A stretch of DNA of 17,970 nt, taken from contig JAJRTR010000162.1 in the NCBI GenBank assembly GCA_024278215.1, positions 1 to 17,970 on the forward strand, written 5' to 3'. The notes below the pieces were generated by a model, which ran no database searches, was not told the origin of the DNA, and saw nothing but the letters and a program-made list of their open reading frames with translations. Shown here in pieces: positions 5,216-12,769 of the stretch (positions are counted from its first letter, which is position 1; each line of letters starts with the position of its first letter). The position numbers were made by a program, and so were the translations under genes. Origin of the DNA: a bacterium. Its GTDB lineage: Bacteria > UBP15 > UBA6099 > JAJRTR01.

Positions 5216-5379
5216 TAATCACCTCCGCCATCCGGTGCGGCTGATTTCTGTTATCGCGCAGCCTTTCGTTTTGTATGATCACCCGGCCCTGGAAACAGAC
5301 AGTCACGGGAATGCGGGAATACAACCGAAAAACACCGCCGCAATACCGGGCGGCGTTCTTGAATTTTCGATGGAAACGC
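5216..5379. repeat. 164-bp dispersed repeat, intact copy A (empty site)
   Basis: This copy runs from TAATCACCTCCGCC to TTCGATGGAAACGC. It matches 9720-10066 at 160 of 164 positions once the insertion there is removed. Hairpin potential lies at both ends: CCGC...GCGG on the left and CCGCC...GGCGG on the right. It sits in the convergent gap between the PII gene and the lipoprotein gene. The minus strand is open through it, but all four differences from copy B change the encoded residue, so it is not a conserved protein gene. The remainder of 5116-5491 holds nothing else recognised. Confidence 0.85.
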
Positions 5380-9702: not shown

Positions 9703-10371
9703 TTACGTAACAAGGCGGGTAATCGCCTCCGCCATCCGGTGCGGATGATTTCTGTTATCGCGCAGCCTTTCGTTTTGTATGATCACCCGGCCCTGGAAAC
9801 AGGCAGTCACGGGAATGCGGGAATACAACCGGGGCAATTGCAAAATTCCGGTGCGGCTGCGGTCGGCTGCAATTGTCAACAGATGTGTTGTCGGCGCAAA
9901 ATCGTCCTCGACGTGCTCTGCAAATACGCCTGCGGGGATATTGCACCTACGCCTAGCTTCAGACCAATTTCGCTCGACCTCGCTACGAACATAATTTTGC
10001 AACTGGCTCAACCGAAAAACACCGCTGCAATACCGGGCGGCGTTCTTGAATTTTCGATGGAAACGCTTAATGAAAAGCGTCAGGCCGTGGAAAAGTTCAA
10101 ATACTGCGTTTGTTCGAGGAAACATGCAGAAGCGGAAACAAACTAAAGCACCTCGGAATTCGTCGACAGTTATACCGAAGTCCGAAATAATCGCTGCAAG
10201 AGTTTTCCTTTTAATATCTCTGCTGGGATGAACAGGTATGACAACCCGCCGCCTGTCGGATTTTCTCTTATAAATGGCATGGCTTGTCCCGGCCTGTCGC
10301 GAGTACTCAAAGCCCAGCTTTACTGCCACGCGGGTGACATCCTTTGAGGTTGCCGTGGGGAAACGCGGCAC
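9703..10371 (-). CDS. hicA: HicA-type mRNA interferase toxin with repeat-derived C-terminal extension
   Basis: Residues 1-76 match HicA, a small dsRBD-fold toxin that cleaves mRNA. The features are GFEYSRQAGTSHAIYKR with catalytic His31 in the GTSH motif, VVIPVHPSRDIKRKTL, then an IISDFGITVDEF helix where HicA proteins normally end. The frame does not stop there but runs on to residue 222. The tail is encoded by unrelated spacer, the 164-bp dispersed repeat (from about residue 102) and a 177-bp inserted element (residues 122-180). The expected end is near 10144. The GTG start at 10371 shares one base with the hicB stop codon, so translation is probably coupled. The toxin may be intact, weakened or inactive; the tail's effect is unknown. 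Confidence 0.8.
   Translation of the reverse strand: MPRFPTATSKDVTRVAVKLGFEYSRQAGTSHAIYKRKSDRRRVVIPVHPSRDIKRKTLAAIISDFGITVDEFRGALVCFRFCMFPRTNAVFELFHGLTLFIKRFHRKFKNAARYCSGVFRLSQLQNYVRSEVERNWSEARRRCNIPAGVFAEHVEDDFAPTTHLLTIAADRSRTGILQLPRLYSRIPVTACFQGRVIIQNERLRDNRNHPHRMAEAITRLVT
9720..10066. repeat. 164-bp dispersed repeat, copy B, interrupted by a 177-bp element
   Basis: The two halves, 9720-9831 and 10015-10066, rejoin to match copy A (5216-5379) at 160 of 164 positions. Between them lies the inserted element plus a six-base duplication. The whole copy lies in the 3' extension of hicA. Confidence 0.85.
9832..10008. mobile_element. 177-bp MITE-like element with TIRs and 6-bp target duplication
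   Basis: The left end GGGCAATTGCAAAATT and the reverse complement of the right end, AGCCAGTTGCAAAATT, match at 13 of 16 bases. The element is flanked by CAACCG at 9826-9831 and 10009-10014, present once in copy A. It encodes no transposase. Its length is exactly 59 codons, it lies in codon phase with hicA on the minus strand, and it has no stop in that frame, so it adds residues 122-180. The flanking duplication is visible in the protein as a repeated Arg-Leu. A transposase elsewhere must mobilise it. The alternative, a deletion between CAACCG repeats in copy A, is less likely given the inverted ends. Confidence 0.75.
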
Positions 10372-10598
10372 TAAACTGCGACCTTAACAGTAGTAATGGA
10401 AATCTCACCGTAGTGTACTTCATCTCCGTCGTAACGATAATCTTCGATCATCGCCTGAATCGCAGCCTTAAGTTCTGACAAGGTTTCCTCGTACGTTTCG
10501 CCCTGCACGTGACACCCTGGCAATGCCGGGCACGTGGCGAAATATCCGCCCTCCTCGCAAGGTTCAATCACCACAGTAAAGGAATGTTCTTTTTTCAT
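10371..10598 (-). CDS. hicB: HicB-family antitoxin
   Basis: The product (75 residues) has the HicB partial RNase H-like fold signature: FTVVIEPCEEGGYFATCPALPGCHVQGETYEETLSE, followed by an amphipathic helix (LKAAIQAMIEDY). HicB binds and blocks HicA. There is no visible C-terminal DNA-binding helix-turn-helix or ribbon-helix-helix, so autoregulation would be by another route, or this is the short HicB form. The ATG at 10598 has a strong Shine-Dalgarno GGAGG at a six-base spacing. The order is antitoxin then toxin, the reverse of the E. coli hicAB arrangement, with a one-base stop/start overlap to hicA. Confidence 0.88.
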   Translation of the reverse strand: MKKEHSFTVVIEPCEEGGYFATCPALPGCHVQGETYEETLSELKAAIQAMIEDYRYDGDEVHYGEISITTVKVAV

Positions 10599-10862
10599 GT
10601 GAAGCCTCCGCGAATATAGATACCCTGTCCTCCCAATTATTATTTTACTTCAATCCGGTGCTTCTTTCCAGCGCTCCCAGGATATGTAAATGATGCGGCG
10701 ATGCTTGAAACATGTAAACATAGTCCTGAAAAACAGTGCCTGTGTCGGAAAACATGCCTGCGAGAAAATTCCGTATGGCGTCCCCGGAATCTTCAAAAAC
10801 GCCGTTGCAATACCGGGTGGCGCTCTTGGTTTTTAGTAGCCAGTTTTAAGTTATAGTTGATG
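10599..10862. other. Intergenic stretch upstream of hicB
   Basis: No gene is seen. The part next to hicB is AT-rich on the antisense strand (TAAAATAATAAT), which could be the hicBA promoter. A partial dispersed repeat lies at 10795-10828. Confidence 0.4.
10795..10828. repeat. Dispersed repeat, right-end fragment (copy D)
   Basis: This stretch matches the right end of the 164-bp repeat (copy A near 5334-5367) at 29 of 34 positions, including the hairpin GCAATACCGGG-GGCG core. The left part is missing. It is an older, eroded copy. Confidence 0.6.
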
Positions 10863-11225
10863 ACTAGCAGGACATCGTGCACCCTGATGCGCATTGAACC
10901 TTGAAAACAAAATATCGTTCGTAGAACATTCTTCTCCAAAAGACCTGCTATCAGGAGTCAATAGTTGAGCAAAATAAGTGAACATCACAACACCTCAAGG
11001 GCGATAGGGCCGGTTGTCGGTCATGATGCGCCAGATGATATGGCACAGTTTGGCGGCCACGGCTGTGGCGGCGGCGTTGAAGTGTTTGCCCTCAGAGATT
11101 TTCTTTACCGACATCCATCAGCTTCAAGTTCGTATTGACGGTAAACTCTTCGAGGCTTTTGAATATTCGATCCCTTTCGAGTACGAACGATATTAAATTT
11201 TCAAGGTGCACGATGTGCTGCTAGT
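10863..11225. mobile_element. Degenerate element with long inverted arms around a transposase remnant
   Basis: The left arm (10863-10923) and right arm (11182-11225) are inverted copies. Both carry CTAGCAG-C/G-ACATCGTGCACC, then TTGAAAA and AATATCGTTCGTA. The left arm has 17 additional bases between the two blocks. Between the arms are an IS110-like transposase C-terminus and unassigned sequence. It could be an internally deleted IS or a non-autonomous derivative. No target duplication was identified. Confidence 0.5.
10995..11114 (-). pseudogene. IS110-family transposase, C-terminal remnant
   Basis: Only 39 residues remain in frame, from ATG at 11114 to a TGA at 10995. EGKHFNAAATAVAAKLCHII followed by WRIMTDNRPYRP resembles the end of the IS110/IS116/IS902 (transposase_20) domain, where a basic stretch precedes A-V-A-K-L and a Trp. 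An in-frame stop lies just upstream, so the catalytic DEDD and Ser domains are gone. The match is by memory of the family pattern, so it is moderate. Confidence 0.5.
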
Positions 11226-11230
11226 TCGGC

Positions 11231-11261
11231 GCCCCCATGGGGGCGGGCCTCTACGAGGCCC
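11231..11261. repeat. Two back-to-back GC-rich hairpins
   Basis: GCCCCCATGGGGGC (11231-11244) is a perfect palindrome. It is followed with no gap by GGGCCTC-TAC-GAGGCCC (11245-11261), a perfect seven-pair stem. Further partial copies of the arm motif follow in the minus orientation (near 11266-11282 and 11307-11321). This may be the border structure of a mobile element or a strong transcription block before the SH3b gene. Confidence 0.55.
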
Positions 11262-11440
11262 ATAGTGCACGATCTCCTGCAAGTTGTTTTTAGCAGTTTG
11301 GGTTACCGATGTCCTGCTAGCCAGCATATAGTTGGCAAGGAGTTGTAATTTCTGTGAAAAGTGGGGTAAATATGCAGAGGGGCTTGCATCTGTGGTATTA
11401 TTGCAGAAGTTACACAAAAGAAAGTGCATAAAGAAACAGT

Positions 11441-12452: not shown

Positions 12453-12489
12453 ACAGGCGTTGCGCCGACTCTTTGCCAACACCTACGAG

Positions 12490-12528
12490 TAATCGCCTCC
12501 GCCATCCGGTGCGGCTGATTTCTGTTAT
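12490..12528. repeat. Dispersed repeat, left-end fragment (copy C)
   Basis: Thirty-nine bases match the left end of the 164-bp repeat, with one difference from copy A and one from copy B. Similarity fades abruptly after TTCTGTTAT. This shared left boundary (TAATC) supports a real element end there. Confidence 0.7.
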
Positions 12529-12769
12529 TCCCCCGACTTCCAATCTTATATATGATCCGGGAACGGGCAATCATCCGCACACCCGCACAATCTTACAGAC
12601 TCACCACATGAGTGCTCTCATCTGAACCTGACTTCGATAATATGTCGGCCCAAACCTGTCAGATGTCTGCACAGGCGCAATTGGAACATCCGGCCTGCAC
12701 AGATTTTATCGACTGGACAGATTGAATGGAGGACGACATGAATATCAGGGTGAAATTCGGAAAGAATCC

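Follow-up and report, generated by a model that had tools for sequence, protein, structure and literature searches.

Bacterial MITEs are 100-400 bp in length, lie mostly in intergenic DNA and at times form in-frame fusions (PMC10969869, PMC5896051). ERIC reaches up to 711 copies in Photorhabdus luminescens (PMC10969869), and QMITE1 and QMITE2 of Coxiella burnetii have 45 and 78 copies, respectively (PMC5896051). Chunjie of Geobacter uraniireducens has copies of 178-235 bp with conserved ends (PMC10969869). Rickettsia palindromic elements (RPEs) code for a conserved peptide; of their ten families, three are found inserted in frame within genes (PMC10969869).

The repeat family represented in the window (the whole 17,970-nt stretch of DNA analysed) shares with Chunjie, Correia elements and ERIC a length of 100-250 bp, terminal inverted repeats (TIRs), direct repeats and a mostly intergenic location, but differs from them, as compared by description, in having the TIR GAGCCAATTGCAAAATT, a C-WWWW-G target and a 4-bp target duplication (TSD). 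Like QMITE1 and QMITE2, the family consists of long palindromic MITEs with size variants, truncated copies and some copies that alter gene ends; the host, however, differs, and QMITE copies, again by description, are fewer. The family resembles RPEs in being a palindromic repeat of ~150-180 bp of which one copy lies in an open frame. Compared by features, however, its copies keep no common phase, are scarce in genes and show no detectable coding constraint, and it thus lacks two features of RPEs: in-frame insertion in genes, and a conserved peptide under coding constraint. The family is new and lineage-restricted, set apart from known families by their descriptions.

The original prediction for this locus was a 177-bp mobile element with inverted ends matching at 13 of 16 bases and a CAACCG duplication. 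The insert is present, its ends match at 13/16 bases as claimed, and CAACCG stands at both junctions (Table 1). The family consensus, however, extends the element to 179 bp (GGGGC...GGCTC) and reduces the duplication proper from 6 bp to 4 bp, AACC. CAACCG appears at both junctions because the element starts with G and ends with C in a C-AACC-G target; the outer C and G are a chance overlap between element ends and target.

Table 1. Positions of the insert, its junctions, the host repeat and neighbouring features in the window.
Feature	Position	Strand	Identity or basis
Uninterrupted host repeat, the empty site (ATACAACCGAAAAA)	5216..5379	+	
Open frame of 222 aa: HicA domain, then run-on through host repeat and MITE	9703..10371	-	
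Host repeat, left half, including left TSD	9720..9830	+	97% to 5216-5327
Target duplication AACC, left copy	9827..9830	.	family-wide 4-bp TSD
MITE copy, 179 bp, near-palindromic (GGGGCAATTGCAAAATT ... AATTTTGCAACTGGCTC)	9831..10009	.	genome BLAST, family boundaries, fold
Left TIR	9831..9847	+	2 mismatches to GAGCCAATTGCAAAATT
Right TIR	9993..10009	-	1 mismatch to family TIR
Target duplication AACC, right copy	10010..10013	.	family-wide 4-bp TSD
Host repeat, right half, including right TSD	10010..10066	+	98% to 5322-5379
HicB-like antitoxin	10371..10598	-	PF15919, 30.8 bits
Overlapping inverted repeats	10863-10887/11201-11225; 10895-10923/11182-11210; 10858-10884/11300-11326		

The DNA that received the insert is a 163-bp host repeat with two copies in the window, one intact (5216-5379) and one split by the insert (9720-10066). 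The split halves are 97-98% identical to the uninterrupted copy, which bears out the claim of an empty site in the same window. Genome-wide, the 163-bp repeat is confined to the window's contig, bar a few short partial matches. Whole or partial copies lie around the hicBA pair (5216-5379, 9720-10066, 10789-10846 and 12486-12539), and the repeat is perhaps itself a mobile or recombination-associated sequence. A second small element is possible at 10858-11326, where three inverted repeats, each 25-29 bp long, overlap one another.

The window's own genome is a fragmented assembly of 4.55 Mb in 207 contigs, 95% complete. A BLAST search of this genome with the insert returned at least 40 matches, most of them 87-92% identical over 168-178 bp, in agreement with the expectation of further copies in the source genome; the window copy is itself diverged, being 92% identical to the nearest copy among the matches listed. 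The end sequence, allowing up to three mismatches, occurs 375 times in forward and 379 times in reverse orientation, as compared to 1 and 0 matches for reversed-pattern controls, which supports the prediction of a mobile element and gives a genome copy number of several hundred, about 375 end pairs. The detailed copy set comes from 1.9 Mb of the genome and comprises 109 full-length copies among 196 distinct loci, some of which are fragments of 20-130 bp; part of this sample was picked for holding ends, and the genome-wide copy figure is therefore best taken from the end counts.

Full copies in the 1.9-Mb sample are most often 178 bp (52/106) or 179 bp (36/106) in length, with an indel separating the length classes. 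Family boundaries, set from 80-88 full copies, define 17-bp TIRs (GAGCC...) and a 4-bp TSD: left-flank positions -4 to -1 equal the right flank in 76-84% of 88 paired elements, and the duplication is perfect in 50/80 copies and agrees in at least three of four bases in 66/80. Target duplications are thus found in other copies, as had been anticipated. The target consensus is C-WWWW-G, with the flanking C and G present in about half of targets. The family model aligns over its full length to both strands of nearly all full copies, the element being one long imperfect palindrome, and the mean fold energy of copies is -73 and -63 kcal/mol vs. -46 kcal/mol in shuffles. Shorter versions that retain both ends measure 46, 62, 64, 106, 107, 122, 162 and 169 bp; the 46-bp version (L100:16952-16997, C6) contains little beyond the two inverted repeats. 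The family has the traits of a MITE: short length without a transposase gene, TIRs, a TSD of fixed length, and dispersed copies together with an empty site. We conclude, with high confidence, that the insert belongs to a non-autonomous DNA transposon family (MITE) that is restricted to its lineage and present there in high copy number.

The strong hairpin in both orientations and the intergenic location of copies could also be read as marks of a structured non-coding RNA, or of a terminator-like repeat, kept for its hairpin and not a selfish element. However, compensatory changes are no commoner than in slid controls, the window has no Rfam match, and the TSDs and the empty site show insertion; moreover, a hairpin and a preference for intergenic DNA are usual in MITEs (PMC10969869, PMC5896051). 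We consider a repeat retained for its hairpin very improbable.

The MITE lies in a minus-strand frame that starts as hicA and adjoins a HicB-like antitoxin gene. The HicA domain (PF07927; 57.7 bits; profile positions 2-58 of 58) occupies residues 10-67 of the 222-aa frame, and the MITE corresponds to residues 121-181. The frame stays open across the insert, which contains no stop, and codon 122 begins at position 10008, so that two parts of the original claim, the absence of a stop and the start on a codon boundary, are correct. The placement in hicA holds for the frame that begins at hicA and not for hicA proper, the domain of which is already complete at residue 67, and the predicted gain of 59 residues is replaced by a net gain of 61 codons (161 to 222 aa). 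Without the insert and one duplication, the 161-aa frame still runs into the host repeat. Since the HicA domain is complete and the frame without the insert still runs on, the extension is most simply explained as run-on of the frame past a HicA of normal length, and it probably has no function.

According to the original prediction, the family might be one of in-frame-tolerated MITEs. The family is a new one, as suggested, but the results in the 1.9-Mb sample indicate that in-frame tolerance does not describe it. Two of these results, the out-of-frame copies and the mostly intergenic location, had been named in the original prediction as evidence that would count against it. The commonest length plus the TSD (178 + 4) shifts the frame. 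Element length plus 4 is divisible by 3 in only 43/106 copies, so that out-of-frame copies are common. Copies are mostly intergenic: full-length copies lie inside ORFs of at least 200 aa in 8/117 cases, as compared to ~92 expected from the 79% coverage of such ORFs, and inside ORFs of at least 100 aa in 14/80, although these cover 87%; the gene calls came from a simple ORF rule rather than a gene finder, and on inspection by eye several of the ORFs of at least 100 aa that hold copies appear to be spurious or probably start downstream of the insertion. Among the 36 copies that are 179 bp long, raw variation is highest at third codon positions, read in the window frame (0.139 vs. 0.085 and 0.083 at the other two). 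A tree-aware count of changes per site, in which all 102 copies were taken together, gives 4.50, 4.30 and 4.45 for the three codon phases (p = 0.96). With codon phase absent from the tree-aware count of all copies, we ascribe the raw third-position excess in the 179-bp copies to probable shared ancestry, and we reject the coding reading of the element on which that excess had borne.

At least one of six frames is open in 92.5% of 80 copies vs. 29% of mononucleotide shuffles; because copies share ancestry, this excess is close to a single observation. In-frame read-through is possible in 62/636 copy-by-frame combinations, about 10%, so that a family of hundreds of copies is expected to produce the odd in-frame case. 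The sole copy examined whose ORF encodes a recognised domain (L097:9517-9694; C25:9516) ends an ARMT1-like phosphatase gene, contributing its last codons and its stop. An RPE-like family, with copies selected for an open frame and tolerated inside proteins, would account for the in-phase, open window copy, the open-frame excess and the raw third-position excess, but is very improbable, given the absence of codon phase, the frame-shifting commonest length, the avoidance of ORFs, the copy that ends the ARMT1-like gene instead of passing through it, and the lack of a Pfam match for the peptide. We conclude that the in-frame position behind the hicA toxin gene is a coincidence, the alternative that the original prediction had itself offered.

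According to the mechanism that we propose for the MITE, a cut-and-paste transposase provided in trans would insert the element at C-WWWW-G in A+T-rich, mostly intergenic DNA, generating the 4-bp duplication; TIRs together with a duplication of fixed length point to a DDE transposase. The window copy landed in one of the two host-repeat copies, downstream of the hicBA pair, where the hicA-derived frame was already open across the repeat. With the repeat already open, and the copy 179 bp long (+4 = 61 codons) and open in phase, the open frame continues.

The transposase with the same ends that the original prediction had envisaged was not found: neither the end pairs around genes in the 1.9-Mb sample nor five transposase Pfam families searched genome-wide yielded an autonomous partner. 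PF01609 has three genes in the genome, none with a pair of family ends; searches with PF13586 and PF05598 gave none; and PF13751 and PF13701 are present as remnants only. TIR pairs 0.6-4 kb apart enclose no recognised transposase. The autonomous partner may be missing from the fragmented assembly because it is unassembled. Two MITE end fragments, oriented as in an element, enclose a tocopherol-cyclase-like gene (C84:23948-25144, L119), with flanks that agree in three of four bases; given the density of copies, this arrangement may be due to chance.

Family ends are at chance level in 59 other genomes (6 belonging to the same order, the other 53 more distant) and have no match in phage, plasmid or viral-contig collections; among the matches listed, two in genome contigs elsewhere are single end-like matches that we judge to be chance. 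Within the genome, the closest copy pairs are up to 99.4% identical, and 16/84 of the contig starts fetched touch or lie inside a MITE, which suggests recent spread.

A single in-frame copy is no evidence of protein-tolerated insertion. That an open-frame length class of this expanded palindromic MITE occasionally adds new tails to host proteins, with HicA here and the new C-terminus of the ARMT1-like protein as candidates, appears unlikely; if real, MITE-added tails would make a minor contribution to the evolution of protein ends. Because the assembly breaks at the repeat, the family matters for the reading of such genomes. The family, which makes up roughly 1-1.5% of a 4.5-Mb genome, adds to a poorly sampled lineage a well-defined and very abundant MITE family for which the ends, target and duplication are determined.
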